From the NCBI GenBank assembly GCA_040902535.1, contig JBBDXD010000025.1, positions 1-64,000 on the forward strand: a DNA stretch of 64,000 bases, written 5' to 3'. Below, in pieces: positions 4,627-21,702 of the stretch. Each line of letters opens with the position of its first letter. Position 1 is the stretch's first letter. Below the pieces are notes generated by a model. It was not told the DNA's origin and ran no database searches. It saw only the letters and a program-made list of their open reading frames with translations. Position numbers and translations under genes: made by a program. This DNA comes from Dehalococcoidia bacterium. Its GTDB lineage: Bacteria; Chloroflexota; Dehalococcoidia; DSTF01; JACRBR01.

Positions 4627-4641
4627 AGCCCCCGGCTTGCG

Positions 4642-5574: not shown

Positions 5575-5705
5575 CTGGTCGCCTTGGAATATTTCTGAAA
5601 TGTTACAGCGCGCGGCCCAAGAATGCGAACGCTAGTGCTTCGCTAATCCGGGGCGATTCAGACTGAGGTGACGTTCGAGCTACGGCCGACAACGCGTACG
5701 TGGAC

Positions 5706-6740
5706 CTAGGGATCCCAAACCTTGCGATCCGCGGCAGTAAAGTCCCGCAAAGAGTTGAAGACGACGACACGTGTTTGCGGCCCGATTCCCCGCTGCAGCA
5801 CATCACGTGTTCTCCGTCGTGCTTCTGGATCGGGGTTCACGATAGTGAGGGCTCGAAGATTCCCGCCTTTGGTGTTCGTACGGAAGAGTGCCGTCGAGTG
5901 CAGATCCGTAGCTGGGAAAGAATAGCCGATCACGACGATGCTCCGAGATGAATAGAGTTCTCGACCAGCGAGCTTCCAAAGACGTGCGAATACGCCTTCG
6001 TCGAACCGCTTTTGTGATTCGGGAGGGATTATCGTAAACCGAAGATTTCCCCGCTGGCGGGTATAGGGACGTTCCTTCAAACGCACATTGGCGGGCGTCG
6101 CCTCATCATCGACGATGAAGTGCAGTGACCCGTGCAATTTCAGCAGGGTGACTGTGTCCACTCGCGTCGCGATCCGATCTGGCGACCAATGGTGATCTCC
6201 TCGAAGGTTTCCACCTCCACCCGGCGAGAGTTCAAACCCATAGCCGTAGTGGGCATTCCACTTTCCGTCGCCGTGCCGCTTGAGGGCGTCGTCAATCAGG
6301 CAGTCATAGTTGAAGGACACTACGGAGTCGCCGACGCGGAGCTTCGCCACGAGCGCGTCATGATAGTCACAAGCGAGAGGCTTCTGATTCCCGCGACATA
6401 TTGACTCCTCGAAAACCGAAGCTATCGCTTGCTGTAACCGCACCCGCTTTTCCTTGAAGTCCGCGGTCTTGAAGTCCCGCTTCTCGCCGGTCGTCTTGAG
6501 CATCCGCTCGGAGTGTTCAAGAGTGGTGAACATCGTCTCCATTGTGGTGCGAAAGTTCGTGCCAAACAGCTCGACCGTGTCCTTGATCACGCCATCAATA
6601 ATCCTCTTGTGTTTCGGATCGTGGATGCGCTGAAGCTGCGTGTGGAAGTCAGCGTCTAGGGGCGGCAGGCACGGATTCACAGTCGGATCGACGAAGCTCG
6701 CACCCCGCGTTGCCCCCGCGCCCAACACAATGACAGCCAT
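5706..6740 (-). CDS. SIR2-like protein, candidate NAD-consuming defence effector
   Basis: The 344-residue protein has SIR2 superfamily marks: the nucleotide motif VIVLGAGATRGAS at the N-terminus, SFNYDCLIDDAL near residue 150 (conserved Asn/Asp), LLKLHGSLHF near 205 (candidate catalytic His), and VVIGYSFPATDLH near 272. No zinc-binding cysteines are seen, as in the SIR2-like proteins of anti-phage systems that deplete NAD+ rather than deacetylate. Its start abuts the stop of rusA with no gap. It is followed on the same strand by the GNAT-like, SET and SDR genes. An NADase function is inferred from family and context. A regulatory or non-enzymatic SIR2 fold is the alternative. Confidence 0.78.
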   Translation of the reverse strand: MAVIVLGAGATRGASFVDPTVNPCLPPLDADFHTQLQRIHDPKHKRIIDGVIKDTVELFGTNFRTTMETMFTTLEHSERMLKTTGEKRDFKTADFKEKRVRLQQAIASVFEESICRGNQKPLACDYHDALVAKLRVGDSVVSFNYDCLIDDALKRHGDGKWNAHYGYGFELSPGGGGNLRGDHHWSPDRIATRVDTVTLLKLHGSLHFIVDDEATPANVRLKERPYTRQRGNLRFTIIPPESQKRFDEGVFARLWKLAGRELYSSRSIVVIGYSFPATDLHSTALFRTNTKGGNLRALTIVNPDPEARRRTRDVLQRGIGPQTRVVVFNSLRDFTAADRKVWDP

Positions 6741-7169
6741 CTAGTTTCGGCCCTCTCGTTCAACCCAATCCAGTTCGACCTCGTAACGCACAACATCAGT
6801 TACGGGCAGCCTCTCGATGACGATCCGCGAGACTACGCAGTCGTCGCGGAAGGCAATCGCGCGATCAGGCCGCGCCTGCTCTGGCACCTCCGCCCACAGC
6901 GAAGGGTCCACGGGAGCTCGCGGATGTACTGCCATCAGCCCGTCGCAGATGCCCGTCGCAAAGTTGTCCAGGTCGCCTGCGCTGACAGGCGCAAAAACGC
7001 GGACGGTCAACGCCACCAGACCGTCTTCTGGTTCTCGGCCATCGAGCGCCGCGCATGCGGCGATACGGAACGTCTTGAGGCGCTGCACTTCCGCCTGCTT
7101 GCGCCACATCGAGTTGGCGCCGTCCTTCTTCGGCGGCACGCCGTCAACGGTGAATGTGACCTTCATCAT
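6741..7169 (-). CDS. rusA: RusA-like Holliday junction resolvase
   Basis: The 142-residue size is typical of RusA. The N-terminus has VTFTVDGVPPKKDGANSMWRK. The core carries acidic residues that fit the RusA metal site, in the motif SAGDLDNFATGICDGL and later RPDRAIAFRDD. RusA enzymes cut four-way DNA junctions during phage or prophage recombination and replication. The start codons ATG 7169 and ATG 7166 follow a TACACT box by 5 and 8 nt, which suggests a leaderless message starting at the second ATG. The stop abuts the SIR2 start. A frameshifted paralogue lies at 2420-2841. Confidence 0.85.
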   Translation of the reverse strand: MMKVTFTVDGVPPKKDGANSMWRKQAEVQRLKTFRIAACAALDGREPEDGLVALTVRVFAPVSAGDLDNFATGICDGLMAVHPRAPVDPSLWAEVPEQARPDRAIAFRDDCVVSRIVIERLPVTDVVRYEVELDWVEREGRN

Positions 7170-7232
7170 GGCAGAGTGTAACCGGCGCTCGCTTGTTGGC
7201 GATGCACGCCCGAACCCATGTAAGATCCACGC

Positions 7233-7433
7233 ATGAACCCGGCTCTGGAATTCGGCGAGCTCAAGCCAGGCGATCGCATCGAGACAGTCGATGGCTCCAT
7301 CGCGGAGGTGATCGCTTCCACGGAGGACGGCACGTGGATCCGGGTAAGGTACCTTGAGTCACCGGGCAATCCGTCCCTGGTCGGAACTGAGGATCTATGC
7401 TCGGAGGACGATCTCCGGATCGCGAAGGCTTAA
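7233..7433 (+). CDS. small hypothetical protein (SH3-like beta fold?)
   Basis: The 66-residue acidic protein has the pattern KPGDRIETVDGSIAEVIAST and WIRVRYL, which looks like a small beta-barrel (SH3- or KOW-like). It is divergent from rusA. A TAAGAT box at 7221-7226 lies 6 nt before the ATG, consistent with a leaderless transcript. I recognise no family. It might be a small regulator of the replication module, but nothing proves that. Confidence 0.6.
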   Translation: MNPALEFGELKPGDRIETVDGSIAEVIASTEDGTWIRVRYLESPGNPSLVGTEDLCSEDDLRIAKA

Positions 7434-7537
7434 AGGAGACAAACCGTAGCGGCCCACGCGCGATCGCTGCGTGGCGGTCAATTCATCGGCGTGAGAGCAC
7501 GGAAATGGAAAGGGCCGGCGCGAAGCCGGCCCAATCA

Positions 7538-7777
7538 TCAGGCACCTTGTTCCTTGTCGTAATCGAATGGCAGGCCATGCCAGCGCGTTAGCGCCATCCT
7601 CGTCGCCCATACTTTTGAGCCGTCCTTGTAGTTGCTCGCCGTCTTCTGCCCGCCCTTGCGCCCGTTTCGCTTCGCGGCGTCGGGGTGTCGTGCGTGCATC
7701 GTGAGTGCCGCCAGGCGCGCTCGCATGCTCGGACTGAGCTGCGAGCGCCGGCCGTCGTTGTTCGCGGCGCGGGCCAC
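7538..7777 (-). CDS. small basic hypothetical protein
   Basis: Seventy-nine residues, strongly basic, with NGRKGGQKTASNYKDGSKVW near the middle and ALTRWHGLPFDYDKEQGA at the end. It directly abuts the stop of the primase-helicase gene (start at 7777, primase end at 7778), so it is the second gene of that operon. Small basic proteins of this kind are common beside phage replication genes and often bind nucleic acid. That is inference, and no family is recognised. Confidence 0.6.
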   Translation of the reverse strand: MARAANNDGRRSQLSPSMRARLAALTMHARHPDAAKRNGRKGGQKTASNYKDGSKVWATRMALTRWHGLPFDYDKEQGA

Positions 7778-9682
7778 TTAGGCTCCGACCGGGCTTTCCG
7801 CGACGCCGTTCGCCGCATGCCGGAACGGAGCGAGGCGGACCAGCCGATTGCGTCGGTCATCGGGATCGGCCTTCCGCTCGATCTTGCCGCCGTCCTCTAG
7901 CTGTCGCAGCGCGGCGTCCAACGACGCGTTGTCGATGTCGTCATCGGCCAGCTTCTCGCGCAAGGTGCCCTTCGGCATCCAGTCGGTAACGAAGCCGAGG
8001 ACATCCAGGACGAGGCCTTTCGCCAGATCGACCTTGCGACCGGAGCGTCCGGCTGGCTCTTGATCGAGCGCCGACGGCGCCACCAGGAGGAGCTGGGCGG
8101 TGCCTCGCTCCTCGCTGATGATTCGTCGGACCCCGAACGGCTGCACCTTCGCCGAACATCGGGCTTTCGCGTGCTCAACGGTGGACGTGTCCTCGCCGCC
8201 AATGCTGACCGCGAGCATCGTGTCGAGCGTCGCCTCGATATGGCTGGACCCGCGGAAGGTGCCACCATCCTTGCGATTGTGGTGCAGCACGACGAACGCC
8301 GGATCGCACGACCGTCCGGCTGCACGGAGCCGGTTGAAGATCTTCGCCACCTCATCGGCCGAGTTCTCGCTCTCGCGATGCACCTCGGCGAACGCGTCGA
8401 TGACCACGAGCGCTGGCCTGATCCGCGCGATGACCTCCTTGAGGTCGTCGACGCAGCGGCCATTCGAAAGGTTGAGGCCCTCCTTCGACGCGACTTCGAT
8501 GGGAAGCGCCGCGCCTTCTAGCCCTGCGCCTCGAATGAGCAATTCCAGTCGCGCCTTGAGGATCGCTGCTGGCGACTCCTCGTCGATCAGAAGCACGGGG
8601 CCGGCGATGACCTGGTACTTTCGGAGCCATGGCCGTCCGGAGGCGATCGCTATCGCGAGGTCGAGCGCCAACCAGGTTTTGCCCGACGCCGGCTTACCCA
8701 CCAGGGCAACCATCCCTCCGCGCGGGATCAACGGCTCAACGAGCCAATCGATCCTGTCCGGGGCTTCGGCGAGGAAGGCTTGAAGCGGGACTGCGGCGAA
8801 CCCACGATCCCCATCGATCGGTTCGATTCCCGGGTCGGGGTACCGCCGGTAGATGCCGGAGACGACGCTTTTCAGTTCCGCCTTGTCGAACGCGGGATCG
8901 CATCGGTCCGCCCATTCGTCGAGGATCGCCTGGGTGACATCCTCAGGGTGGGCACGGCTCTTGAGGTATCCCGCCAGTCTGGCGGCAGCGTCGTTTCGCC
9001 CGCCTGCATGGACGCCGGCCAGCAGCTCTACCACCCAGTTCTCGGTCAGCGGAACACTGGTCGGGCGCTCGACTTGCACCTGCGAGGCGATCGCCCGCAA
9101 CGGCCCGGCCTCGGACGGCTGGCAGAGGGTCAGAAACCGCGTCAGCGGCATCGGCTGCATTGAGCCGCTCGTGAGGACCATGCGCGGGCCGTCGGTCTCG
9201 CCAAAGTAGGGGAGGTTGATGTAGTTCCCGAATTCCACGGTGCCGGCATCGTCCTGCTTCGGGAAGATCTCCGTCGTCTCAGGGAGCCCGGCCGCCAGGA
9301 CCGCGTGACGTAGGATCCGTCGCATCTCGCGTGCGGTGATCGCCTCGTCGGCGAAGAGCCACACGTGGTAGCCCTTCCCTCGGGACTGTTCCATGTAGAC
9401 GCCAGACGGCAGTTTCAGTGCCGCTAGGGCGTCGTACACGGCCTTTGCGAGCGTCGGATCCTTCCGGTCGATGTCCACCGCGCCGAACCTGCAAGTGCTG
9501 TCCGGCATTAGCGGATAGACGCCAAGGCTCTCCTCGCCTTGGAGGTGGCGCCGGTAGTGGTCGAGCGTCACCTCCCCTCGCGCACATCCTCCCTGCGCGA
9601 GTCCACGCGCATCCTTGCGCCCCTCGAAGATCGAAGCGAATCGCCTCACCTTCTCCTCGTCCAACCGCGTAGTCGTGTCCAT
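7778..9682 (-). CDS. TOTE-like AEP primase fused to RecA-type helicase (element replication protein)
   Basis: 634 residues in two main modules. Residues 1-200 resemble the archaeo-eukaryotic primase of TOTE systems and some phages: GAVDIDRKDP (metal-binding DxD) near 67, SRGKGYHVWLFAD (primase His) near 103, and VEFGNYINLPYFG near 150. Residues 205-300 look like a linker or primase C-terminal region. Residues 310-520 are a RepA/AAA_25-type ATPase with Walker A VGKPASGKT near 330, Walker B VLLIDEES, LVVIDAF and the sensor-like VLHHNRKDGG. The C-terminus resembles a winged helix (DNASLDAALRQLEDGGKIER). It should prime and unwind element DNA. A 39-bp inverted half-site pair lies 167 bp upstream of its start. 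Confidence 0.85.
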   Translation of the reverse strand: MDTTTRLDEEKVRRFASIFEGRKDARGLAQGGCARGEVTLDHYRRHLQGEESLGVYPLMPDSTCRFGAVDIDRKDPTLAKAVYDALAALKLPSGVYMEQSRGKGYHVWLFADEAITAREMRRILRHAVLAAGLPETTEIFPKQDDAGTVEFGNYINLPYFGETDGPRMVLTSGSMQPMPLTRFLTLCQPSEAGPLRAIASQVQVERPTSVPLTENWVVELLAGVHAGGRNDAAARLAGYLKSRAHPEDVTQAILDEWADRCDPAFDKAELKSVVSGIYRRYPDPGIEPIDGDRGFAAVPLQAFLAEAPDRIDWLVEPLIPRGGMVALVGKPASGKTWLALDLAIAIASGRPWLRKYQVIAGPVLLIDEESPAAILKARLELLIRGAGLEGAALPIEVASKEGLNLSNGRCVDDLKEVIARIRPALVVIDAFAEVHRESENSADEVAKIFNRLRAAGRSCDPAFVVLHHNRKDGGTFRGSSHIEATLDTMLAVSIGGEDTSTVEHAKARCSAKVQPFGVRRIISEERGTAQLLLVAPSALDQEPAGRSGRKVDLAKGLVLDVLGFVTDWMPKGTLREKLADDDIDNASLDAALRQLEDGGKIERKADPDDRRNRLVRLAPFRHAANGVAESPVGA

Positions 9683-9848
9683 TTCGGACCTTTCTACTAC
9701 GCTCGTCTAGAGCAACCCTTTGTGGGCAGTCGTCCCGAGCGTGTTCGGGTCGTGAGAAGTCGCCATGTTGGGGGTGAACCGGAATCGAGAACCGGTTGGC
9801 TTTACTCACGCTCAGGACGATGGGGTTGGGAGTACGAACCGCAATGCA

Positions 9849-9887
9849 GATCACGATCAACGAAGGCCTACGCGTGATCTTGATCGA
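9849..9887. repeat. inverted half-site pair, copy 1
   Basis: GATCACGATCA, 15 unrelated bases, then TGATCTTGATCGA. The two half-sites are inverted repeats of one another except at the central base. The same half-sites with the same 15-nt spacing recur at 13523-13561. Copy 1 lies in the 418-bp non-coding stretch 9683-10100 upstream of the primase gene. It could be a replication-initiator or repressor binding site. The rest of that stretch shows no credible gene. Confidence 0.7.
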
Positions 9888-10100
9888 GATCAGCTGCTCG
9901 CGGGCACGATGATGCATCCCTGCATCGAAGTGCCAACGAGGGTTCCATAGCGTCGGTGGGTGGGACATGTACACCTCCTGGGACGCGGAGGGCCCCGATC
10001 CAAGCGGATCGGTTGCAGCCGAACTCGTGCGCCCAGCAGGGTCGTGCGGGGCGTATCTGCCCCTACCTATAGGGTGGAGTGGACAAGGCGACTTGTGACA

Positions 10101-11444
10101 TTAGGCGGCCAGAAAATCTCGGAGGAGGGGTTTGAGTCGCTGCTTCGTCTTGCGTGCCGTGCTCGGCGGCAACCCTGCTTGCTGGAAAAGCTGCTCTTCG
10201 GGGACTCCCAGTTCCTGGGCTCGAATGCAGAGCCGAGCGATTTTGGCCTGGGCGGGCGTCATCGAGGCAAGGATGCGATCGACAATCAGGCTCGATTCGA
10301 CGAGCCCGTACTCCGGATCGATCTGGCAAGGTTCGTGGCCAAGGTCCGCGAACTGAAACGAGCGCCTAGCGCCACTGCGCGTGTTGGATCCCTCTTCCTT
10401 CGGCTTGTAGTCACGATCAAGGCTGAGTTCTCGGCGTAGCTCGCGATTGGAGAGGTCCTTGAGGCGATTTCGCACAGTTCGCGGGTGGCCGTCCCACCCT
10501 TGCCAATGCGTGCAGGGAACGCCATCCGCGAGTACCAACTCAAGAGGAAGTTCCGATGACGATTTGACCTCGTAGGCTCGCTCCAACATCAGAACCGCCA
10601 AGATGCTCGTGAGCATGTCATCAGCGTCGAAGCCTGGTCGTCTCGGTGTTCCCTTCGGGCGCCGGTCGTCCCTTCGCGCTTGCGCGGGTACCGGCGGCTG
10701 ATATTCAGGACAGAGTCTCCGGACGGAGTTTGATAGCGAATGCCCTTGAGGGAACTGCGTCGCTGCGCGATCACGCGCGAACGCCGCTTCAATCCGCGCG
10801 ATGCGCTTGAGTGGCGTACGCTCTTGGAGTGCTGAGCTGATATCGGCGAAGAGTTCACGGACTTCATCCCTCGCGCGTTCCCTGGACTCCGCTCGTCGTT
10901 TGGCGATCGAGTCGAGCAATTTCTTGTCGGCCGCCAACTCGGGAACGACTCCGCCGCACATCAGTCTGTCCACCCGCGCACGCCAACCAGGAGGATGCTT
11001 CGGTCGAAGCAGCTGGCGACACCTCGCGCCGGTGACGTTTCCCTCGACGCCCATGGCGTCTACGAGCACGAGGCGAACGTCATATGCCAACACGCGTCCA
11101 TTATCGATGCATGTGAAATGGCCGAGCGCGCCTATGTGATCGAGCGTGCGTCTCCATCCGGTGTGGCAAGTCGCTTGCGGTTGTTCGTGAGGTCCAACCG
11201 GGACTGAACTGAACGATGGCCTGACAATATCGTCCTCGAGACGCATCTTCGCAAGCTGACCCGGAAAGATGAGAAGCTGCCAAGTACGAGCTTCAAGGCC
11301 CTTGTTGTCGAGTTGCGCAAACACTGATCGACGCAACTTGTCCACGGCGCACGCAACCTGGTCTCTCTCCACTCGTCCGCTAACGTGAGGCACTCCGTTC
11401 TGAAGGAACAAGTGCAACACAACGGACAGATCGATCATGTTCAT
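10101..11444 (-). CDS. hypothetical protein with C-terminal HTH-like region
   Basis: About 447 residues if started at MNMIDLSVVLHLFLQ (11444). An in-frame ATG at 11474 would add 10 residues. No known family is apparent. The last 60 residues (SMTPAQAKIARLCIRAQELG, then LPPSTARKTKQRLKPLL) look like a sigma-region-4 or HTH helix-turn-helix, so DNA binding is plausible. Around residue 260-300 is a disordered basic stretch. It follows the non-coding stretch with the inverted half-sites and is transcribed in the same direction as the primase. It may be an element regulator, but this is a guess. Confidence 0.65.
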   Translation of the reverse strand: MNMIDLSVVLHLFLQNGVPHVSGRVERDQVACAVDKLRRSVFAQLDNKGLEARTWQLLIFPGQLAKMRLEDDIVRPSFSSVPVGPHEQPQATCHTGWRRTLDHIGALGHFTCIDNGRVLAYDVRLVLVDAMGVEGNVTGARCRQLLRPKHPPGWRARVDRLMCGGVVPELAADKKLLDSIAKRRAESRERARDEVRELFADISSALQERTPLKRIARIEAAFARDRAATQFPQGHSLSNSVRRLCPEYQPPVPAQARRDDRRPKGTPRRPGFDADDMLTSILAVLMLERAYEVKSSSELPLELVLADGVPCTHWQGWDGHPRTVRNRLKDLSNRELRRELSLDRDYKPKEEGSNTRSGARRSFQFADLGHEPCQIDPEYGLVESSLIVDRILASMTPAQAKIARLCIRAQELGVPEEQLFQQAGLPPSTARKTKQRLKPLLRDFLAA

Positions 11445-11551
11445 GCATAAGAATCGGCAGCCGCGCTGGCGCAATCAGGATCTGTGTCGGTTTGAAACAA
11501 GCTCGTATGTGTTGCGTTCTATCGTCGATGGAATCGACGAAAGGAACGCGT

Positions 11552-12430
11552 ATGGAAATTCGAACAAGACTCACCCGGCTGCGACTGCCTGGACTTGGTA
11601 GCGGGTCGGCACTAGACCGTCTCATCGACAAGCTCGACTGGTCCGCGGGGACCCGGCATCGCTTGCTGACCGGCGAGCTGCTGCCGGAGGCGAGACCGTT
11701 CTGCACTAGCGGCTACAACCCGCTCGGTGAAGCGCGCGAGCGATATCTCGCCGGCGACCGCGATGAAGCGATCTGGTTGCATTTCGTGGCAACGCTCATC
11801 GGATGGGAGCGCCCGGACTCGGTCGATCGCTTTCTCCGCGTCCTCGGCGGCGGACAACGAGCGACGTGGTGCGTCATCACAGCGCACCCTCTCGACGCTA
11901 TCGCGAGAATTGAAGACCACGCCGCGGTACTGATACGAGAGGCACCGTTCGGGAATCACCGGAAGTATGAGACTCACCGCGGTGATGGGGGCAGTGCTCG
12001 TGTCGTGAAGAGCTTCATCGATTGGGCTGAGGCCAACCCGTCCGCGCGCATCGACGCCATCGCCACAACGGCGACTAATCCAGAGCATGCCTTCGATCGC
12101 CTTTTCAACTCCCTGAAGGTGTACCGCTTCGGTCGAACTGCCCGCTACGATTTCGCTCGGCTGCTGGCAAACCTCGACGCGAGGTTGAAGCCCGGCTGCT
12201 GTTACTTGCAAGGCGCGTCCGGCCCGAGACGTGGCGCCGCGCTGCTGTTCCTTGGTCGGCCGTGGGCGCGGGACGGCGAACTTTCATTCCTTGAAGATCG
12301 CTGCCGCGAACTCGCACAAGTCTGCGGTCTGGATCTCCAGGTGATAGAAGACGCCGTTTGTCAGTGGCAGAAAACGACTCCGTCAGCCCGTGTGGAACAA
12401 GCACCACGCAACCTTGCGAGGGCGTCATGA
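11552..12430 (+). CDS. alpha-glutamyl/putrescinyl thymine pyrophosphorylase-like protein (putative DNA-base hypermodification)
   Basis: I chose ATG 11552 because AAAGGA lies 7 nt before it. The product is 292 residues. The C-terminal segment KVYRFGRTARYDFARLLANL followed by LKPGCCYLQGASGPRRGA resembles the conserved core of the thymine pyrophosphorylase-like group from phages with hypermodified thymine (clade 3). The N-terminal part has ERPDSVDRFLRVLGGGQRAT. Such enzymes act on modified thymines to install amino-acid or polyamine adducts that block restriction. Only the family resemblance is visible, and the companion enzymes of a hypermodification pathway are not evident in the island. It overlaps the next small frame by ATGA. 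Confidence 0.5.
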   Translation: MEIRTRLTRLRLPGLGSGSALDRLIDKLDWSAGTRHRLLTGELLPEARPFCTSGYNPLGEARERYLAGDRDEAIWLHFVATLIGWERPDSVDRFLRVLGGGQRATWCVITAHPLDAIARIEDHAAVLIREAPFGNHRKYETHRGDGGSARVVKSFIDWAEANPSARIDAIATTATNPEHAFDRLFNSLKVYRFGRTARYDFARLLANLDARLKPGCCYLQGASGPRRGAALLFLGRPWARDGELSFLEDRCRELAQVCGLDLQVIEDAVCQWQKTTPSARVEQAPRNLARAS

Positions 12431-12621
12431 CCACCACGTGGAACAGTCGCCTCAGCGCCGATGCCAGATCGGCGCGCCGAAACTGCACCTTGCCCGAGCG
12501 CGTGCAAGCCGAATACGGATGTCGGTTTGTCGGCGCGCTGAGACGACGCAGAGCCGTCGTGAACGCGCAACGCGTCGTAACGTACGCCTCATTCGCTCAG
12601 CGCGTCTCTCGCGCACCTTAG
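12427..12621 (+). CDS. small hypothetical protein, uncertain
   Basis: The 64-residue frame starts at an ATG that overlaps the preceding stop (ATGA at 12427-12430). The product is arginine-rich (MTTTWNSRLSADARSARRNC), with AQRVVTYASFAQRVSRAP at the end. The coupling suggests translation, but composition alone cannot separate it from chance in GC-rich DNA. No family is recognised. Confidence 0.3.
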   Translation: MTTTWNSRLSADARSARRNCTLPERVQAEYGCRFVGALRRRRAVVNAQRVVTYASFAQRVSRAP

Positions 12622-12707
12622 CGCACATGAGAGCGCTTGAGGAACTGTTATCGCGAACGAACGACAGGGCGGCCATGGGGCCGCTCTTCGGTTAGAAGGA
12701 GAAACTC

Positions 12708-13517
12708 ATGACCACGGAGAAGACGCAGCGTCTGTTGGCCTCGCTCGAGCAGGCTGTGCTTGGTGTGCAGGATAGCGACGGCTTCAAGGCCTATCTTCGG
12801 ATGACCGCGAAGTTCCACTCCTACAGCTTTGGCAATGTCCTGCTTATCGCTTCCCAACAACCAGGCGCAACGCGCGTCGCCGGCTATCGCACCTGGCACG
12901 CTTTTGGTCGCTACGTGCGAAGGGGAGAGAAGGGCATCGCGATCGTCGTGCCCTACCGAACCATGCGGAACAACGACGCCGGCGAGACCGAGGAGCGCGT
13001 GCGGTTCGGCACCGGCTACGTGTTTGATATCTCGCAGACCGAAGGCCAGGATCTCCCGAACGTCCGCTGCCCGCTGCTGAGCGGCGACAGCGCGCGGGAT
13101 CTCTATGAAGCGCTGGCCTGTCTTGCGGCATCTAAGGGCTTCGTTCTCGATCGCGCACCCCGGCCCGACGAACCGGCCGCCGGCTTCTGGCAGCCAGCAA
13201 CGCGGACCATCTGGATATCACCAGAACTCTCGACGGATCAGGCCGCGAAGACGCTCGCGCATGAACTGGCACACGCGTTCGATCCGGAGATCGGAGACTA
13301 TGGTGCCTGTCGTGACGAGCGCGAGGCGGTTGCCGAAGCCGCGGCGTTCGTCGTGTGCGAGCGCTTCGGGCTCGACACCAGCGAGCGGAGCGTGCCGTAC
13401 ATCGCGGGATGGTCGAAGGACATCGAAACGCTCAAGCGCGCGCTCGCGAAGGTCCAGACGATCGCGCACCAGATCTTGGAGACATTGGACGCCACCCAGG
13501 CGCAAGCCGCGGCATAG
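12708..13517 (+). CDS. ardC: ArdC-like antirestriction protein
   Basis: 269 residues with the two ArdC parts. The N-terminal ssDNA-binding domain spans about 1-130, with FGNVLLIASQQPGATRVAGY and RRGEKGIAIVVPY. The C-terminal zinc-metallopeptidase-like domain has HELAHAFD near residue 184 (HExxH) and a following DEREAVAEAAAF helix. ArdC proteins of conjugative plasmids protect incoming ssDNA against host restriction. A ribosome-binding AGAAGGAGAA stretch precedes the ATG. It could help this element enter a new host, while the element itself carries a restriction set. Confidence 0.85.
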   Translation: MTTEKTQRLLASLEQAVLGVQDSDGFKAYLRMTAKFHSYSFGNVLLIASQQPGATRVAGYRTWHAFGRYVRRGEKGIAIVVPYRTMRNNDAGETEERVRFGTGYVFDISQTEGQDLPNVRCPLLSGDSARDLYEALACLAASKGFVLDRAPRPDEPAAGFWQPATRTIWISPELSTDQAAKTLAHELAHAFDPEIGDYGACRDEREAVAEAAAFVVCERFGLDTSERSVPYIAGWSKDIETLKRALAKVQTIAHQILETLDATQAQAAA

Positions 13518-13522
13518 TCGTC

Positions 13523-13561
13523 GATCACGATCAGACGTACGCACTCCCTGATCTTGATCGA
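13523..13561. repeat. inverted half-site pair, copy 2
   Basis: Identical half-sites and spacing to 9849-9887 (GATCACGATCA, N15, TGATCTTGATCGA). Here the palindrome extends two bases further outwards (TC and GA). It starts 6 bp after the ardC stop. The 257-bp stretch 13518-13774 holds nothing else that I can identify. Confidence 0.7.
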
Positions 13562-13774
13562 CGTTAGCGGGATGGGAGTCAGCGACGCGAAATGCCTGAG
13601 AGAGGTTAGTGGTGTCGCGTCACCCTAATATACTATTCGCGGACGTAGCGTAAGTCGGCCACGTTTCTCTCGAGTTTACGGACTTCGGCGCATCGCGATG
13701 GATGGAGCGTGGATGCCAGCAAAGACCTCGAATAGAGAGAAACAGCCTGTCGAAGCGCGGCCCCGCGCGAGTCG

Positions 13775-14023
13775 CTACGTTACCTCCTCGAAGGGAAAGT
13801 GCCCAGAGACAATGCGCTCGCTCACGAAGCGCCCCGCGGATGGAGCCTTGATTAGCTGGTCATACACATCGCGCGGCACCAGATAGTAGCGATACGTGCC
13901 TCGCTCGCGGAACTCGACCTCAAGCGTCGAATTCTGTGGGTCGTACCCCACTGAGCGGATGCTGTCCGATTGAACCAATACTCGCTGCACAAGCGAACCC
14001 TCGGTCATACGCGAGTGTATCAC
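13775..14023 (-). CDS. KTSC-domain protein
   Basis: Up to 82 residues. A start at MTEGSLVQR (14008) is equally possible. The core VQSDSIRSVGYDPQNSTLEV and GTYRYYLVPRDVYDQLIKAP followed by GRFVSERI is the small KTSC domain, named for its occurrence at the C-terminus of some lysyl-tRNA synthetases and common as a free protein in phages and plasmids. Its function is unknown. It is followed upstream on the same strand by the zinc-finger-like gene 9 bp away. Confidence 0.75.
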   Translation of the reverse strand: MIHSRMTEGSLVQRVLVQSDSIRSVGYDPQNSTLEVEFRERGTYRYYLVPRDVYDQLIKAPSAGRFVSERIVSGHFPFEEVT

Positions 14024-14032
14024 TGTGGAGGT

Positions 14033-14287
14033 TCACTCTGTGTTCCAGTGCCCGCGCGAAAGCAGGTCGGAGTTGTCCCCCATGCCCCGATCGATGGTGC
14101 GGCGCCACTCCGCGCCGCAATCGTCGCAGATGTAGTTTATGTAAGTCTCGGTCACTCGGTCACCAGTATATTTCTTGCGGTAGACCTCGTGCAGACCATG
14201 GTATCTACCCGGTCCGCTCGGCTTCCGCGCCGTGCACGCTTGGCAGAGCCGCGGTCCAAGATCTGTCGATACGGGTCTCTCGTCCAT
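14033..14287 (-). CDS. small zinc-ribbon-like protein
   Basis: 84 residues with two CxxC pairs: CQACTARK near residue 15 and CDDCGAEWRRT near 54. They suggest a four-cysteine zinc ribbon. No enzyme motif is seen. It precedes the KTSC gene by 9 bp in the same direction, making a two-gene unit. Possible roles are DNA binding or protein interaction; the family is not identified. Confidence 0.55.
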   Translation of the reverse strand: MDERPVSTDLGPRLCQACTARKPSGPGRYHGLHEVYRKKYTGDRVTETYINYICDDCGAEWRRTIDRGMGDNSDLLSRGHWNTE

Positions 14288-14464
14288 GAAGGAATGATCG
14301 GCAGCACCCGCCTTGACTGTCTGCTTTACAATGTCCTGACCGCTTGATTCTGAGTACCATTCTGCTAGTCCTAAAGACTCGATCGCACAAGCGGATTACC
14401 AGTTCCGCCATCCATGAGATAAGATAGGCCGTTCCTGGAAAGACCTCCTTCGAGGACAAGGCAT

Positions 14465-15721
14465 ATGACGCGCGGTCGCTCTACCGTAGTAGACATCTTC
14501 GCCTGCTGCGGCGGCATTACCTGCGGGTTCCAATGGGCGGGCTTTCGTCCGCTCGGCGGCGCCGACATTCAGGAGTTGTACCTCCGCACCTACGCCCGCA
14601 ACTTTCCCGACGCGAAACCAATACACGCGGACCTCGCCGAGCTGCCGCCAGCGCAATTCCGCGAAATGCTCGGCCTAGAGCGCGGCGAACTTGACTGCCT
14701 CGTCGGTGGTCCACCTTGTCAGGGTTTCTCAAAAAACGTGCCGGCCATCAACCGCTTTCTCGATGACCCACGCAACCAGCTGATCGGGCGCTACCTCGAC
14801 TACGTTGAAGAGCTGCGTCCGAAGATCCTGCTGCTCGAGAACGTCGCCGAGATCGTCCGTGCCTACGACGGCGCGGTTACGCGCGAGATCATTACCGCGC
14901 TCAATTCTTGGGGCTACGAGGTCGATGTCAAGGTGCTCGTCGCTGCCGACTTCGGGGTGCCGCAAATCCGCCGACGCGCATTCTTTTTCGCAAACCGACT
15001 CGGGGCGCCGGTCCTATTTCCAACTCACACACATGCACAGGAAGAGGCCCCATCCGACCTCTTCGGTAACGGCCGCCTCTCGCACGTGACGGTCTGGAAC
15101 GCTATCGGCGACTTGCCGTCGCTCGAGGCTGGCGAGGGCAAGAGTCCTGTGACGTACACGATGCCGCCGCAGTCCGACTACCAGCGGTTAGTGCGCGAGG
15201 GTTCCGACCTACTTCACGACCACGTTTCGCGCCCACTTCGCGATCGGCAGCTCGAGCGCGTTCGTGCGCTTCGTGAAGGTGAGGGAGTACAACAGCTGCC
15301 GCCTATGCTTCGTCCCAAGTCTGGCTACAGCGGAGCCTACGCGCGACTGCACTCGCAGGGTGTGGCGCGCACCATCACGCGTTGGGTCTTCCACTCAGGG
15401 TCCGGACGTTTCTCGCATCCGTTCGATGATCGGGTTATCACCATCCGAGAGGCAGCACGTTTGCAAGGGTTCCCCGACTGGTTCGTGTTCACTGGCACGT
15501 ACGTGCAAAAGGCTGCCCAGGTCGGTGAGGGCGTACCGCCGCTGATCGCAAAGGCTTTTGCGGAGATCGCGCAGCAGCTACTTCTTGAACGCGGCCGGGC
15601 GCACGACCTTGGCCGGAACTTCGTCCTCGACGGCGCGAGCAACGGGCGCGTCCTTGGGGCTGAGAAGTCCCATGACCGCCTCGACGAACTCGTCCGCGTC
15701 GATGCGGGCGGGGCTGATTGA
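14465..15721 (+). CDS. DNA (cytosine-5) methyltransferase
   Basis: 418 residues with ordered 5mC methyltransferase motifs: I VDIFACCGGITCGF, IV GGPPCQGFS with the catalytic Cys near 82, VI ILLLENV, VIII QIRRRAFFF, IX near REAARLQGFP, X GEGVPPLIAKAF. The target recognition region is short and lies about 210-320. It should methylate the site cut by the adjacent endonuclease and so protect the host. The 3' end overlaps the convergent endonuclease gene by 144 bp. The residues after LLLERGR look like an unneeded extension, perhaps from loss of an original stop. A vsr gene nearby fits 5mC chemistry. Confidence 0.92.
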   Translation: MTRGRSTVVDIFACCGGITCGFQWAGFRPLGGADIQELYLRTYARNFPDAKPIHADLAELPPAQFREMLGLERGELDCLVGGPPCQGFSKNVPAINRFLDDPRNQLIGRYLDYVEELRPKILLLENVAEIVRAYDGAVTREIITALNSWGYEVDVKVLVAADFGVPQIRRRAFFFANRLGAPVLFPTHTHAQEEAPSDLFGNGRLSHVTVWNAIGDLPSLEAGEGKSPVTYTMPPQSDYQRLVREGSDLLHDHVSRPLRDRQLERVRALREGEGVQQLPPMLRPKSGYSGAYARLHSQGVARTITRWVFHSGSGRFSHPFDDRVITIREAARLQGFPDWFVFTGTYVQKAAQVGEGVPPLIAKAFAEIAQQLLLERGRAHDLGRNFVLDGASNGRVLGAEKSHDRLDELVRVDAGGAD

Positions 15722-16372
15722 CACGCGCGTCGCTTGGTCGGGGATGTGGAAAACCTCGAACAACTGTTTTTGGTTCGGGTACCAGCGAAGCTTGAGCCTA
15801 CCATCGGAAAACCCCTGCAGGCCCGTAGCCGTCGCGTTCGTCCATTTCCATGCAAATGCCTCTTCATTGAAGGGCGGGTAGCTGCTCTCAACAAGCACGA
15901 AATTCTTGCGCGCGTTGTCCTTCAGCAGGATGCCGACGCGCGCGTCAGTGACTCCCTGGTACTTGCCGTCCCCAACGACCTTCTCGTTCCAGTGACGGAT
16001 TAGCGCACGACCAAGATCTTCCGGTGGTGACGTCGCATCCAGCTTGGCAAACCCTAGGGCGACGGCCTTCTTGAAGATGTCGGCACGCTGGATGACTAGC
16101 TCGAACTGCGTGCCAGCCGCGAGGTTGCCCCACTGCACCGCCTTAAGCGACCAACCAATGTGTTTCGCTTGATCTACGGCGTCGAACAGTCGCTTTGTTC
16201 GACCCTCAACAAGCGGGTTCGGAACAGGGAGCCCTTTCACGTAGTGGAAGGCCGCCTCCCAGATGAAGTCCTCAAGGTCGTCGATGAACGGCGACGCGAA
16301 GCACACGGCGATGGCCGTTGCGAGCCTTCTCTCCTGATGGGCCGAAAGGCCGTAGTAAACTGTCGATGCCAC
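15578..16372 (-). CDS. putative type II restriction endonuclease
   Basis: 264 residues, convergent with the methyltransferase and divergent from vsr, which is the usual place for the cognate nuclease. The stretch PLVEGRTKRLFDAVDQ...GWSLKAVQW (about 53-82) fits a PD-(D/E)xK-type site with an Asp and an S-x-K. GKYQGVTDARVGILLKD follows near 138. I cannot name the specificity. Assignment rests on context plus the weak nuclease pattern. The 144-bp tail overlap with the methyltransferase means that one of the two C-termini is not essential. Confidence 0.6.
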   Translation of the reverse strand: MASTVYYGLSAHQERRLATAIAVCFASPFIDDLEDFIWEAAFHYVKGLPVPNPLVEGRTKRLFDAVDQAKHIGWSLKAVQWGNLAAGTQFELVIQRADIFKKAVALGFAKLDATSPPEDLGRALIRHWNEKVVGDGKYQGVTDARVGILLKDNARKNFVLVESSYPPFNEEAFAWKWTNATATGLQGFSDGRLKLRWYPNQKQLFEVFHIPDQATRVSISPARIDADEFVEAVMGLLSPKDAPVARAVEDEVPAKVVRPAAFKK

Positions 16373-16389
16373 TACTTGGAGCGTATGCG

Positions 16390-16818
16390 ATGCCCCTAAG
16401 GCCCGTCAACGAGACAGCGAAGCAACGCTCGAGCATCATGTCTCGCGTTCGAAGTAGCGGCTCGACCCTCGAAGGGCGCGTCGCGGATCTACTTGAAGCG
16501 AACGGCTTCGCGTACCGTAAGCACGCCGCCGACTTGCCAGGTAGACCTGACTTCGTGCTCCTTGACGCGAGAGTGGTGGTCTTCGTCGATAGCTGTTTCT
16601 GGCATGGCTGTCCGCGACATCTTCGGCGACCTCGCACGAACACGAGTTACTGGACCCCAAAGATCGACGCCAACCGGAGGCGTGACGGACGCCAACGTCG
16701 AGCATTGAGGCGTAACGGATGGTCAGTGGTGTCCATATGGGAGCACGATCTTAAGCGAGTCCGCGTTCTTCAGCGGCGCATAGCCCGCCTGCGCTCGTCT
16801 AAGCTCGTATCCAGCTGA
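16390..16818 (+). CDS. vsr: Vsr-like T/G mismatch nicking endonuclease
   Basis: About 142 residues from ATG 16390 (MPLRPVNETAKQRSSIMSRV). Longer in-frame starts exist at 16366 and 16318 but overlap the endonuclease gene. It contains the Vsr core DLPGRPDFVLLDARVVVFVD followed by SCFWHGCP, with the catalytic Asp and the zinc-coordinating Cys/His residues, and SYWTPKIDANRRRD. Vsr starts repair of T:G mismatches made by deamination of 5-methylcytosine at the methyltransferase site. It is divergent from the endonuclease with 17 bp between starts. Confidence 0.9.
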   Translation: MPLRPVNETAKQRSSIMSRVRSSGSTLEGRVADLLEANGFAYRKHAADLPGRPDFVLLDARVVVFVDSCFWHGCPRHLRRPRTNTSYWTPKIDANRRRDGRQRRALRRNGWSVVSIWEHDLKRVRVLQRRIARLRSSKLVSS

Positions 16819-16939
16819 GCCGAGCATAGGCCGACGCTGGACTCGAACCAATCTCCGCGCCGCCATCATCTTCGAAGTTGACAAGGCCTGCTCCCGCGTA
16901 TTAACCTGTGCCATGAACCGTTAATCAGGAAGGATAGAA

Positions 16940-18448
16940 ATGGAACCCTACCTGACCCTCTTTGGTCACGTCATCACGTTATCGACCCGGCCAACGCCGA
17001 GTTTCCTGGAATATCACATTCGGCCGATGGCCGCTCAAGACACCCCTTCGCCCGGCATGATGCTCGCGGTCGAGCTTGGAGTTGACGGAGACCTTATGGC
17101 GTACGCCATGGTTCGGGTGTCGAACGCCTGGGAAGCCAATCCGTATGAGGACGCCCACAGTGCGACGCTCGAGGAGGTCATGCCATTCAATCTGGTCTCG
17201 CCTTCTGAGGGTGAGTCGCCTGTGATCTACCGCGTTTGCCATGTCGAGCCCCTCGAAATGGCCCTTGTTCGGCCGGACACGGGCGAACTCGTTGATGTGC
17301 GATCGGTGACGCGACTTCCGCGCGCCGGCGCACCCGTCTATCTGCCATGGGGTGATTTAATCGCGCGGACACTCGGGCTCATCGATGACCGAACGCGAGC
17401 CCTGGATCTCGGGACCATCCGCGGTTCCGAGGAGGTAGCTGCCTTGATTCGCCGCGACGCAATCCAGCGGCACATGTCGATCCTAGGCGCAATCGGTTCA
17501 GGCAAGTCGTATACCCGCGGGGTGATCGCTGAGGAACTGACGAGATTGCGCGTACCGCAGGTGAACATCGACGTCAACGGAGAGATGATCAGCGCCGCCA
17601 AGGAGCTCGGGGGGAGGACGGTCGTTCCCGGCAAGGACTTTCATGTGCCCCTGAGCGCTTTCACTGCAGGTGACATCCTCAACGCAGTGCCAAGCCTCGG
17701 CGGAAATATGGTGGAGCTTGTCCGACACGCCCACGAGGAACTCCTAGGCGATGCGCGGGCGACCCGAGGAACTTTTGGAGTAGAGGAGCTGATCAATAGG
17801 ATGAATGAGGAGGCACCTAGGCTCGATATGAAGCCCGTGACACTCAGACCAGCGGTTGCCCGGGTTGGTTCTCTCCGCCGCATGCCCATCCTTGGCGCCC
17901 CGTTCGATTGGAAGAGCGAACTGACTCCTGGCGCGTTCATAAACATTGACTGTCGCGGGCGATCGCTCACGGAGCTACGCCTGATCGCGGCGTCTGTGGC
18001 CCGTGACATCCAGCGCCTAGGCCAGTCGGGAGCCGTACCCTTCATCGCGTTGTCTGTAGATGAAGCACACTTAGTTGCGCCATCGGACGATGAAACTGTC
18101 GCAAAGCAGGTATTTCGAGAACTCGCCCGTATCGGTCGCCATATTCGCGTCGGATTGATCATTACAACACAGGCTCCACGCGACATTGACTCGTCCATCC
18201 TCGAACGAACACTCACGCGGTTCATCCACACATTGGAGCCACATCAGCTTCCCGGCATTCGTTCGCTGTTTGCGGATGCATCGGAGGACCTGATCAAGCA
18301 AATGCCCAAGATGCCGGTCGGTGTATGTGTTGTAACCGGGGCCATCGAAAATATTCGTCACGCTGCTGTGGTGAAGGTTCGCTCCCGTCGCACAACGCAC
18401 GGCGGCGAGACGCCGGACATATGGAAGGATCTGGACGAACAGCCATGA
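16940..18448 (+). CDS. herA: HerA-like DNA translocase ATPase
   Basis: 502 residues. The N-terminal HAS-barrel region spans about 1-150. The FtsK/HerA ATPase core follows, with Walker A GAIGSGKS near 188, NIDVNGEM (HerA-specific strand after Walker A) near 210, Walker B ALSVDEAH near 372, and RIGRHIRVGLIITTQAPRDI near 395. HerA forms hexamers that translocate DNA and usually partners with a nuclease encoded next to it. Here the stop overlaps the start of the NurA-like gene by ATGA, so the two products are probably a complex. HerA-nuclease pairs are known phage-defence modules. Confidence 0.9.
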   Translation: MEPYLTLFGHVITLSTRPTPSFLEYHIRPMAAQDTPSPGMMLAVELGVDGDLMAYAMVRVSNAWEANPYEDAHSATLEEVMPFNLVSPSEGESPVIYRVCHVEPLEMALVRPDTGELVDVRSVTRLPRAGAPVYLPWGDLIARTLGLIDDRTRALDLGTIRGSEEVAALIRRDAIQRHMSILGAIGSGKSYTRGVIAEELTRLRVPQVNIDVNGEMISAAKELGGRTVVPGKDFHVPLSAFTAGDILNAVPSLGGNMVELVRHAHEELLGDARATRGTFGVEELINRMNEEAPRLDMKPVTLRPAVARVGSLRRMPILGAPFDWKSELTPGAFINIDCRGRSLTELRLIAASVARDIQRLGQSGAVPFIALSVDEAHLVAPSDDETVAKQVFRELARIGRHIRVGLIITTQAPRDIDSSILERTLTRFIHTLEPHQLPGIRSLFADASEDLIKQMPKMPVGVCVVTGAIENIRHAAVVKVRSRRTTHGGETPDIWKDLDEQP

Positions 18449-20547
18449 CTGACGACCGGCAAGCACCTGCAATCTCGACTTCGTCGCAACGGGAACGCGA
18501 GATCATGCGCCTTCTCCGCGAGAGGGATGAAAGCATGACGGTTGCGGAGATCTTCGATGAGGTGTCTTCTCGCCTGAGCGACTCACGCACCCTTCAGACG
18601 TACTACAAGACCGTTAACAGGCTCGAGGCAGCAGGACGCGTTAGTGCGGCTGACGGCGATGGAGCGCGCGTGTACAGTCTTGTCCCCGGAATCTCGCTCG
18701 CACATGCCTTTACCCAGGACGACATCAGCGATGCCGTGCTCTACCGGAGGCCCGCTGCAATCCTTGCGGCGATTGAGCATCACAACGAGTACCTAGAGGC
18801 GCATCGAGCAACCACTCTAAGGGTGGCTGGTGAGCGTCTCATGGAAGAAACCGACCCCGCCAGCCTCGTGGCCCTGATGCTCCATGAAGATGTCTCAGTG
18901 TTTCGTGCCAAGCTCGACGAGTACCAGGACGCGCGGGACGAAACCTTGCGCGCTAGGCTCGAAGATGATCACCGACACCTTCAGCGTACTTACCTGCGAG
19001 AACTCGCTCTAACGCACAAGGCTCTCGTACTACCCATGCTAGAAGCATTGGATATTGGCGGCGTCGTGTATTCCCGAGAAGAAGCTGAGAAACAGATTCG
19101 TCGGCGCATCTATGGCGATCGCTGTGTCGGCGCGGCCGGCGCACGTCCCACCACGAGCTTGGACAGCACCGTCGCCGGTAGTGACGCGAGCGTGAGGTTC
19201 AGTGAACTACGATTCATCAAAGCGGCATCCTACCGCGAGGACGACGGCGGCCTAGTGTCGATAAATACGAGCGTCGCTGTAGAGAAGCTGGCGCCCGAGG
19301 CGGCAAAGTCCCGGGGCAGGGCGATGATGACCCACAGCCTTCCTTTGACGCGCGAAGCGATCGATGATCCCAAGAACCGCGGAATGATCATGCTGCGTGT
19401 GGCTTTCCCGGATCTCACGGATTCCGCGTTCGAGCATGCGAAACACGGCGCGACCGATGTGGTCCAGTGGCGCGTTGACGTTGCGGTCTTCTCAGGAACG
19501 GCTGCTGATGTGGGAACTGGCGAGATACTCCCGCGCCCAAAGGTCCATCTTCGCGACGGAACCGTGGTGCCCCAGGAACGCGAACACAGGCACTATGTCG
19601 ATAACGATGCGTATGGGGAGTTCACGCGAGAGGGCGTCCGCCATACCCGGCGGATCCTTCAAGAGTTACGTGACTCTCGCTCCCTCCGTGTATTCGGGGG
19701 AACGGTGAAATCCACGCAGTCATACTTCTTCGGATCGTTTCTAAACTGGTTCATCCGATCCGGTTCGCGCCGCGGGAGCGAGCCACCCATAGACCCGAAC
19801 TGGCAGCTTGCCCGCAGCGCTCAACTGCCCGACCACGTGTACATGACCCACCTGTTCGGAGCGCTGCCCCAACTCGAGTTCAACAACTTCTATAGGACCT
19901 TCGTGGTCGTGCGCTCCTTCGCATCGACGACCGAGTACTACATGTCAGGAACTCATGTGGAGGAAGCCGGCGGTTGGCCGCAGTTCATTCGGCGGGTCAG
20001 GGAGGGGCGGCGGGAGTTCAAAGCTAAGACGGGTGAACCGCCCGACTGGGACGAGGGTGTCGATCTCGAGGATGACGACTTTGTCTACGTGTGCGAACAC
20101 GGGGAGTACGCTTCGTTCTACATCGGAACCACCGCTGGTCATCCGGCGCCGCTTGTCCCACGTTATGAGTTCATTCTTCCATCGGTTGACAGCGATACTG
20201 AACAGCAGAGACAGGCCTCAGTCCTCGACAGCCAGCAAGCGATCATTCACGCGGTCCAACAGGTCGGCTTCATGACCGACCGCGACCACAACATGCTCAC
20301 GAACCGAACCTTGGTGCGGATTCTCCCGTCCGTGATTCAGCAGGCACACGATGCCTGCAAATCCTTCGGTGGCCAGCTTGAACGCTCGCTCTACGGTGCC
20401 GTTGCTGAGCTTCTCTCAAGAGGAAGGCGGCTGCGTTTAGGGAGTGGCGATATACAACTCCGTCCCGCCGATCCCGAGGCCGTCATCCAATCCCTCTTGG
20501 CAGGCGCGACTACTGATCCCGACGACGCCGATTCGCCAGATGTCTGA
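18445..20547 (+). CDS. wHTH-NurA-like nuclease, HerA partner
   Basis: 700 residues from ATG 18445. A longer in-frame start at 18325 lies inside herA and is unlikely. Residues 10-75 form a winged helix (SQREREIMRLLRERDESMTV, then LQTYYKTVNRLEAAGRVSA). Residues 80-330 are helical with no known family. Residues 330-640 resemble a NurA fold: VDVAVFSG, LRDGTVVPQEREH (candidate metal-binding Asp), VFGGTVKSTQSYF as the counterpart of the NurA VVK segment, and FYRTFVVVRSF. NurA is usually 300-400 residues, so the N-terminal half is an unusual addition. The nuclease call is by resemblance and by coupling to herA. Confidence 0.6.
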   Translation: MTDDRQAPAISTSSQREREIMRLLRERDESMTVAEIFDEVSSRLSDSRTLQTYYKTVNRLEAAGRVSAADGDGARVYSLVPGISLAHAFTQDDISDAVLYRRPAAILAAIEHHNEYLEAHRATTLRVAGERLMEETDPASLVALMLHEDVSVFRAKLDEYQDARDETLRARLEDDHRHLQRTYLRELALTHKALVLPMLEALDIGGVVYSREEAEKQIRRRIYGDRCVGAAGARPTTSLDSTVAGSDASVRFSELRFIKAASYREDDGGLVSINTSVAVEKLAPEAAKSRGRAMMTHSLPLTREAIDDPKNRGMIMLRVAFPDLTDSAFEHAKHGATDVVQWRVDVAVFSGTAADVGTGEILPRPKVHLRDGTVVPQEREHRHYVDNDAYGEFTREGVRHTRRILQELRDSRSLRVFGGTVKSTQSYFFGSFLNWFIRSGSRRGSEPPIDPNWQLARSAQLPDHVYMTHLFGALPQLEFNNFYRTFVVVRSFASTTEYYMSGTHVEEAGGWPQFIRRVREGRREFKAKTGEPPDWDEGVDLEDDDFVYVCEHGEYASFYIGTTAGHPAPLVPRYEFILPSVDSDTEQQRQASVLDSQQAIIHAVQQVGFMTDRDHNMLTNRTLVRILPSVIQQAHDACKSFGGQLERSLYGAVAELLSRGRRLRLGSGDIQLRPADPEAVIQSLLAGATTDPDDADSPDV

Positions 20548-20614
20548 GCCTGAACTCGCGCGCTCGGGACAACTAGTCACCATGGATCCGGAACCCCTAG
20601 AGGTCTGAGCACGC

Positions 20615-21577
20615 CTAACGTCCCACCAGCCGATCCGCCGGCGACAGCTTCTTGTGCGCTCGCCGAGCGCGGGCGCTGGCCGTGGCCTTCGTGTACCGCT
20701 GGACCATCTGGAGCGAGTTCCAGCCGGCGATCTGCTGGAGGTCCTCGGCGTAGCCGCCGGCGTCCAGGAAGGCGATCGCGAACGAGCGCCGGAAGCCGTG
20801 GATGCCCTTGAAGGGTACGCCGGCGTCCTGGAACCTCCGCCTGAGGCACATTCGGAGCGCATTGAAGGTCATCGGCTGCCCTCGTGTTGAGATCCAAACG
20901 TGGTCTGCCAGCGTCGCCGGGCGCTTCCGTAGGTACTTGTCGAGCATCAGCGCGGCCTTGTTGCCCATCGGGACGACACGTTCCTTCCCGCCCTTCCCTG
21001 TGACCTTGATCGCCTGTTCATCCATGTCGAGATCATCCATGCGCATGCCGCACAACTCCGACGCGCGGACGCCCGTGTCGTACAGCACGAGCACCATCGC
21101 GCGGTCCCGCAGCGAGGTCCAAGACTTTTCGCCACAGGCCTTCAGCACGCGTTCGAGTCCCTCGGTGCCGTAGTGCTCCTTGATTTGATCCGGCACCTTC
21201 GGCGGCTTGATGCGGACCATAGGACTCTCGCGGATCTCGCCCTCTTCGAGCAGCCAGCGGTAGAAGCGCTTGAGCGACCGGTAGCGCTGGTTGACCGTCG
21301 AAGGTGCGTTGCGACCTTGCATGTCTCCGAGGAACTCGCGGACGTGCTCCGTGCTCATCGACGGGATCGACGGCATGCCGCGGTCGAGCCGAAAGGCCTC
21401 CAGTCGGTGGATCGCGTCGGCGTAGATGTTGAAGGTCTTTTCCGTCAGACCCTCGGCGCGGAGGGTCAGCCGGAAGCTCGACAACAGCGCCTGGATGCTG
21501 GGGCCGGCGTCCGCCGGATCCGAATAATTGGGCGCACTGGGATGCAAGCTGCGGGTGGGATTGGTCATGGGGCACAC
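20615..21577 (-). CDS. int: tyrosine recombinase (element integrase)
   Basis: 320 residues. A SAM-like core-binding domain spans about 28-120 (LLSSFRLTLRAEGLTEKTFN and STVNQRYRSLKRFYRWLLEE). The catalytic domain spans about 130-310, with Arg in DTGVRASELCGM, Lys in TGKGGKER, HGFRRSFA (HxxR), a Trp in AGWNSLQM at the second His/Trp position, and nucleophile Tyr in VQRYTKA. All catalytic residues are present. The gene starts 50 bp from the CCA end of tRNA-Gly(CCC) and reads away from it, the normal layout for an integrase that uses this tRNA as attB. It should join and excise the 18.5-kb element. Confidence 0.95.
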   Translation of the reverse strand: MCPMTNPTRSLHPSAPNYSDPADAGPSIQALLSSFRLTLRAEGLTEKTFNIYADAIHRLEAFRLDRGMPSIPSMSTEHVREFLGDMQGRNAPSTVNQRYRSLKRFYRWLLEEGEIRESPMVRIKPPKVPDQIKEHYGTEGLERVLKACGEKSWTSLRDRAMVLVLYDTGVRASELCGMRMDDLDMDEQAIKVTGKGGKERVVPMGNKAALMLDKYLRKRPATLADHVWISTRGQPMTFNALRMCLRRRFQDAGVPFKGIHGFRRSFAIAFLDAGGYAEDLQQIAGWNSLQMVQRYTKATASARARRAHKKLSPADRLVGR

Positions 21578-21626
21578 CTCCGAATCTCTTACCTATAGAT
21601 TCGGCAGCGTGCGCCTAATTATGAAC

Positions 21627-21671
21627 TGGAGCGGGAGATGGGACTCGAACCCACGACCCTCTGCTTGGGAA
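21627..21671. other. attR, tRNA-proximal attachment repeat
   Basis: The 45 bases are identical to 3128-3172 and run from the CCA end through the T-arm, variable loop and 3' anticodon stem into the anticodon loop of tRNA-Gly(CCC). The tRNA remains whole after insertion. Confidence 0.9.
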
Positions 21672-21702
21672 GCAGATGCTCTACCAACTGAGCTACTCCC
21701 GC
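21627..21702 (-). tRNA. tRNA-Gly(CCC)
   Basis: A 76-nt cloverleaf on the minus strand. The acceptor is GCGGGAG/CTCCCGC, the D-arm is AGCTCAGTTGGTAGAGC, and the anticodon stem TCTGC/GCAGA closes the loop TTCCCAA (anticodon CCC). The T-loop is TTCGAGT and the 3' CCA is genome-encoded. It is the integration target of the neighbouring island. Confidence 0.97.

Follow-up and report, generated by a model that had tools for sequence, protein, structure and literature searches.

Within a window of 64,000 nucleotides (the whole stretch of Dehalococcoidia DNA analysed), a gene for a HerA-family ATPase runs directly into the gene of a 700-residue partner, here termed wN, in which a predicted winged helix and a helical middle precede a putative NurA-like nuclease region. 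The same two genes recur at seven other loci and, at all eight, directly adjoin a gene for a C5-cytosine DNA methyltransferase (MTase). It is about an even bet (probability roughly 0.5) that HerA-wN serves as the restriction arm in an ATP-dependent restriction-modification (R-M)-like system based on C5 methylation. HerA-NurA is known from DNA repair and end resection, and pairs of HerA with a nuclease are known as abortive defences. If the reading proposed here is true, a HerA-nuclease tied to a self-marking MTase would link the repair and defence worlds, and the pair would represent a restriction enzyme with a ring translocase at its core.

Overall architecture of the HerA-wN pair

The product of the first gene (16940-18448, forward strand; 502 aa) exceeds the Pfam cut-offs for DUF87 (8e-13) and HerA_C (3e-7) and contains the Walker A motif GAIGSGKS and the Walker B motif VDEAH. 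Its identity as a HerA ATPase is backed by Pfam, by PADLOC and by the solved HerA structure 4d2i (PDB; 4e-16). In a 35-sequence tree, the HerAs of the eight loci form a single clade with support of 100/100, which does not group with NurA-linked HerA and stands apart from the 23 classic HerAs and the 4 of haloarchaeal origin; the root of this tree is unsure because long branches meet at the clade.

The wN gene (18445-20547, forward strand) has its start codon inside the HerA stop, and the resulting ATGA overlap at 18445, already described in the first-pass annotation, is borne out. A longer reading with a start at 18325 would yield 740 aa, but the start at 18445 is preferred because homologues with readable starts begin at or near the end of HerA; the two reading frames overlap at six of the eight loci. 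The partner had been put at about twice the size of classic NurA; wN is approximately 1.4 to 2 times as long as the NurA frames measured here (352-512 aa).

The N-terminus of wN is predicted to form a winged helix, as had been proposed. Residues 12-79 (18478-18681, forward strand) match Penicillinase_R with an E value of 5.5e-4, slightly below the curated cut-off, and are modelled as H-H-H-E-E with a pLDDT of about 72-90; Foldseek aligns them with Fur/PadR/MecI-type winged helices at a probability of 1.00 but with E values of 0.07-0.2. The proposed helical middle is likewise recovered, since residues of about 83-223 (18691-19113, forward strand) are modelled as long helices, mostly with a pLDDT of 60-85. 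This middle is less conserved than the C-terminal half, and the winged helix is the quickest-diverging segment among near relatives (73%, compared to 93-96% elsewhere). Such fast change might fit the expectation for a recognition domain. No model in PADLOC, Pfam or NCBIfam covers wN.

Distribution of HerA-wN loci

A search for HerA neighbours with the same architecture yielded seven further HerA-wN pairs, all from Chloroflexota, the phylum of the window. The pairing is therefore more than chance. The loci are G081 (L004), G238 (L041), G844 (L047), G756 (L051), G1065 (L079), G845, which is spread over two contigs (L046 and L055), and G1032 (L080), in which wN is cut by the contig end. Three of the eight loci are near-copies. 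A candidate match in G361 was dropped, as it was weak and confined to the winged helix. The pair is rare: separate searches gave convincing wN matches in 2/400, 1/393, 2/158, 1/29 and 3/298 Chloroflexota genomes. Phyla beyond Chloroflexota were sampled by one pattern scan, and all eight loci lie in the one phylum. Viral contigs scanned for HerA and wN patterns gave no match, nor did tblastn of wN in the plasmid (P0002, P0003) and phage (P0002) sets.

Association with C5 methyltransferases and predicted T:G-mismatch repair genes

In the window, the C5 MTase gene (14465-15721, forward strand; Pfam DNA_methylase 5.9e-54; TIGR00675 dcm) lies upstream of the pair, with a Vsr mismatch endonuclease gene (16318-16818, forward strand; TIGR00632 7e-36) between them, and the same arrangement is found in G1032. 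In G238, G844 and G845, wN is followed by an HhH-GPD glycosylase gene and then by the MTase gene, all in one direction; in G081, the MTase gene is divergent from the pair, with the glycosylase gene behind it; in G756, the MTase gene is convergent with the pair; and in G1065, the MTase gene stands alone directly downstream, leaving a bare HerA-wN-MTase trio. The gene order thus varies between loci while the gene set is constant. The direct adjacency of a C5 MTase at all eight loci links the pair to R-M, and the 23 classic HerA loci inspected in Chloroflexota, about 317 kb in total, showed no C5 MTase; 13 of these loci have a recognisable NurA beside HerA. By Fisher's exact test, 8/8 versus 0/23 gives p = 1e-7, or 2e-6 when the three near-copies are counted once.

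Three of the MTases (window, G756 and G1032) share just 27-36% identity with the others, and the only plasmid relatives of the window MTase are C5 MTases of less than 60% identity. A T:G-mismatch repair gene, predicted from family alone, is present at six of the eight loci, as Vsr at two and as an HhH-GPD glycosylase at four, and these two families are unrelated; none was seen at G756 and G1065. Should the restriction-arm reading hold, the recurrent T:G-repair genes would gain a clear role.

Restriction endonuclease genes near the pair

A type II restriction endonuclease (REase) gene is present in the window (15578-16372, reverse strand; PADLOC REase_II PDLC03480, 2.8e-56), where it converges on the MTase gene inside the MTase-Vsr-HerA-wN order common to G1032. 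Its family is absent from the other seven HerA-wN loci, including G1032, and plasmid relatives were not found. G238 contains a typeII_restric_endo gene followed by a probable N6 MTase gene, and G756 contains a probable REase, possibly resembling XhoI/PaeR7I, with an N6-type MTase. At both loci, the REase and N6-type MTase form a second R-M-like pair just past the cassette (L041, 13940-16263; L051, 14849-17324). The stretches seen at G1065, G844, G845, G081 and G1032, the last on a short contig, showed no recognisable REase. Because five loci show no REase, the simplest assumption is that HerA-wN itself supplies the restriction arm, and at G1065, where no other nuclease was seen, it is the only candidate restriction enzyme.

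It is worth weighing this against a stand-alone HerA-nuclease defence in the style of DUF4297-HerA, which would act abortively and merely share islands with ordinary R-M systems. Stand-alone pairs of this kind are established (PMC11291478), and a recognisable type II REase gene does lie beside the C5 MTase gene in the window and in G238. However, the adjacency is direct at every locus, the adjacent MTase is always of the C5 type, and no further R-M component is visible around the G1065 trio, so a stand-alone defence appears unlikely. Based on the MTase next door in all eight cases, a restriction arm of an R-M-like system is the likelier role. The first-pass annotation had suggested a distinct variant of HerA-nuclease defence. 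The pair is indeed a distinct and recurrent type, given the fully supported HerA clade and the same partner in eight of eight cases, and gene context is what speaks for defence; the constant C5 MTase neighbours point to an R-M-like restriction arm instead of a defence that stands alone. The restriction-arm reading itself has limits, as the loci are few and from one phylum, and some of the gene context at G238, G756 and the window could be due to ordinary R-M.

The carrier element and comparison with ICETh1

The window copy is held by an 18,544-bp element (3128-21671) bounded by 45-bp direct repeats at tRNA-Gly(CCC). The left att copy (3128-3172) repeats the 3' part of the tRNA gene and is identical to the right copy (21627-21671), which lies within the tRNA gene predicted by ARAGORN (21627-21702, reverse strand). 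An Xer-type tyrosine recombinase is encoded at 20615-21577 on the reverse strand (Phage_integrase 1.1e-32). These marks of integration (tRNA target, repeats and recombinase) are documented for the window copy, and the copies of the window and of G1032 adjoin recombinases in mobile elements. Unrelated cargo gathers in such a setting, a point against the restriction-arm reading.

These features bring to mind ICETh1 of Thermus thermophilus, an element of about 14.9 kb with 47-bp repeats at tRNA-Ile and an XerC-type recombinase, which carries a type IIG REase, a NurA-like protein, the HerA-like TdtA and a methylase of the N4/N6 family (PMC5365140). The loss of TdtA abolishes DNA donation and the loss of the NurA-like protein strongly lowers it; TdtA, the NurA-like nuclease and the type IIG REase are all needed for efficient donation (PMC5365140). 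The window element parallels ICETh1 in its size (18.5 kb), its tRNA insertion with repeats, its recombinase, and its REase, MTase, HerA and wN genes, and HerA-wN could on this basis be a DNA-donation module. We regard this as an important rival, though a quite unlikely one. Most other copies sit among chromosomal genes with no recombinase in the stretches read, and donation is ranked below restriction on that account. In addition, the NurA of ICETh1, whose known role is DNA donation, has 377 aa and is encoded upstream of tdtA, and the methylase of ICETh1 differs in family from the C5 MTase of the cassette.

Comparison with classic HerA-NurA

In the classic HerA-NurA of archaea, Deinococcus and Chloroflexota, as in HerA-wN, a HerA-family ATPase is encoded next to a partner whose D..E..D-type residues follow the order of NurA, and wN takes NurA's position as that partner. 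The two differ as follows: wN has 700 aa with a winged helix and a helical middle, lacks a NurA profile match and follows HerA, whereas NurA precedes HerA; the HerA belongs to its own clade; and a C5 MTase is the neighbour. A diverged HerA-NurA repair pair that resects DNA ends, with irrelevant neighbours, would agree with the HerA family membership and with a genome that has no Pfam NurA. Nevertheless, this is very unlikely, as the pair occurs in at most a few percent of the Chloroflexota genomes searched, its HerA clade is separate, its carrier is a mobile element, and no Mre11/Rad50-type genes adjoin it, unlike in the haloarchaeal plasmid clusters. In each of those plasmids (L007, L008 and L009), genes for a metallophosphoesterase, an SMC ATPase, NurA and HerA lie in one row, in which a gene for a hypothetical protein separates NurA from HerA.

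Conserved residues in the C-terminal half of wN

This half (19150-20544, forward strand) is the conserved part of the protein and its putative nuclease. Across six full-length homologues, 34 of the 40 invariant columns fall here, including D247, D371, K422, H615 and H635, and the motifs are D247xS249, D/E338, R370-D371-G372, V421-K422, D612/H615 and P628...A634-H635. The motif span starts near residue 236-247, earlier than the range of 330-640 first suggested for the NurA-like region, and the clustered acidic residues that a nuclease would require are conserved (D247, D/E338 and D371). In a by-eye comparison without a significance test, D[A/G]S, [D/E], RDG, V-K and AH keep the order of NurA, where the counterparts in the NurAs collected here are DGS, E, DG and a C-terminal A-[D/H]. 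By the same by-eye alignment, the spacing from the first D to D/E is 91 residues in wN and 69 in NurA, and that from there to the next D is 33 and 27, respectively; approximately 100 additional residues precede the last motif in wN.

Profile methods give no link to NurA. The NurA profile (PF09376) has no match in the genome of the window or in the wN members scanned, and a NurA HMM search of wN at maximum sensitivity returned nothing. A profile-profile comparison of wN with NurA (hhalign) scored 15.4, compared to 16.4 +/- 3.1 for column-shuffled decoys; a second such comparison gave a probability of 0.7%; and PDB profile searches with wN showed no NurA link. Two AlphaFold2 runs, with few homologues, reached overall pLDDT values of 45 and 38 and gave no usable model for the C-terminal two thirds. 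Since the HMM, hhalign and PDB profile searches all failed to connect the two families, the NurA label is kept at the motif level only. The claim of a NurA-like region is not confirmed at the level of models or profiles, and what remains for it is the ordered invariant polar residues, from which NurA-like chemistry of this putative nuclease is nonetheless likely. Mutation of D49, a predicted active-site Asp of Thermococcus NurA, kills a true HerA-NurA (PMC12977600), and this residue would correspond to the first motif of wN (the D247 region). That the C-terminal half is instead no nuclease and serves HerA in DNA recognition or regulation would suit the missing NurA match and the lack of a confident fold, but it is very improbable in view of the concentration of invariant columns, with their Asp, Lys and His residues, in this half.

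Proposed mechanism and relation to known systems

On the restriction-arm reading, the C5 MTase would mark host DNA at a target sequence. The HerA ring motor, probably a hexamer, would bind wN, and the winged helix, perhaps with the fast-evolving helical middle, would let wN engage DNA. HerA would then pump unmodified DNA through its ring in a 5mC-sensitive manner, and the C-terminal NurA-like domain of wN would cut the unmarked DNA. The Vsr or HhH-GPD enzyme would mend T:G mismatches that arise from 5mC deamination. The broader proposal, that these loci represent a new class of ATP-dependent R-M, in which a HerA ring motor acts with a winged-helix NurA-like nuclease, 5mC is the self mark and Vsr or HhH-GPD enzymes are standard accessories, is tentative, at just short of an even chance. 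With its bare trio, G1065 would allow a direct test of the idea using just three genes.

The closest functional analogue is CglI/NgoAVII, an ATP-dependent R-M system consisting of a 5mC MTase, a nuclease and a separate ATPase (PMC4267653). The three-gene logic is the same, but the motor here is HerA and not a DEAD helicase, the putative nuclease is not PLD-type, and site-specific cleavage by the cassette is hypothetical. HerA together with a nuclease is also the theme of DUF4297-HerA and other HerA-nuclease defences (PMC11291478) and of the "HerA/FtsK capture" systems, several of which carry wHTH domains (PMC10853773). The partner family is different there, and a constant C5 MTase partner is not described in the available parts of these two papers (PMC11291478, PMC10853773). 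With methylation-associated defence (MADS) there is one point in common, as the HerAs of the cassettes score against mad8 of PADLOC with E values of 1e-17 to 1e-19; membership was rejected because wN matches no MADS model and the adjacent MTase is of the C5 type. A cassette of HerA, a NurA-like protein and a C5 MTase was not found described in the full-text literature searched, which leaves subscription papers and preprints outside it.

Other genes of the carrier element

The element in the window carries several further genes. A small SET-domain protein is encoded at 4066-4626, and the end of its gene overlaps that of a short-chain dehydrogenase (3365-4069). A SIR2_2-domain protein (5706-6740) is possibly a further defence gene, and the gene at 7778-9682, in whose product PriCT_1 and AAA_25 accompany a TOTE-type archaeo-eukaryotic primase domain, is likely the replication or conflict gene of the element. 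An aGPT-Pplase3/ADDT-type protein (11492-12430; E 1.5e-42) belongs to a family named for DNA thymine hypermodification. Close to the R-M genes, 12708-13517 encodes an anti-restriction-like combination of an ArdC-like N-terminal domain and a peptidase domain of the M78 type.
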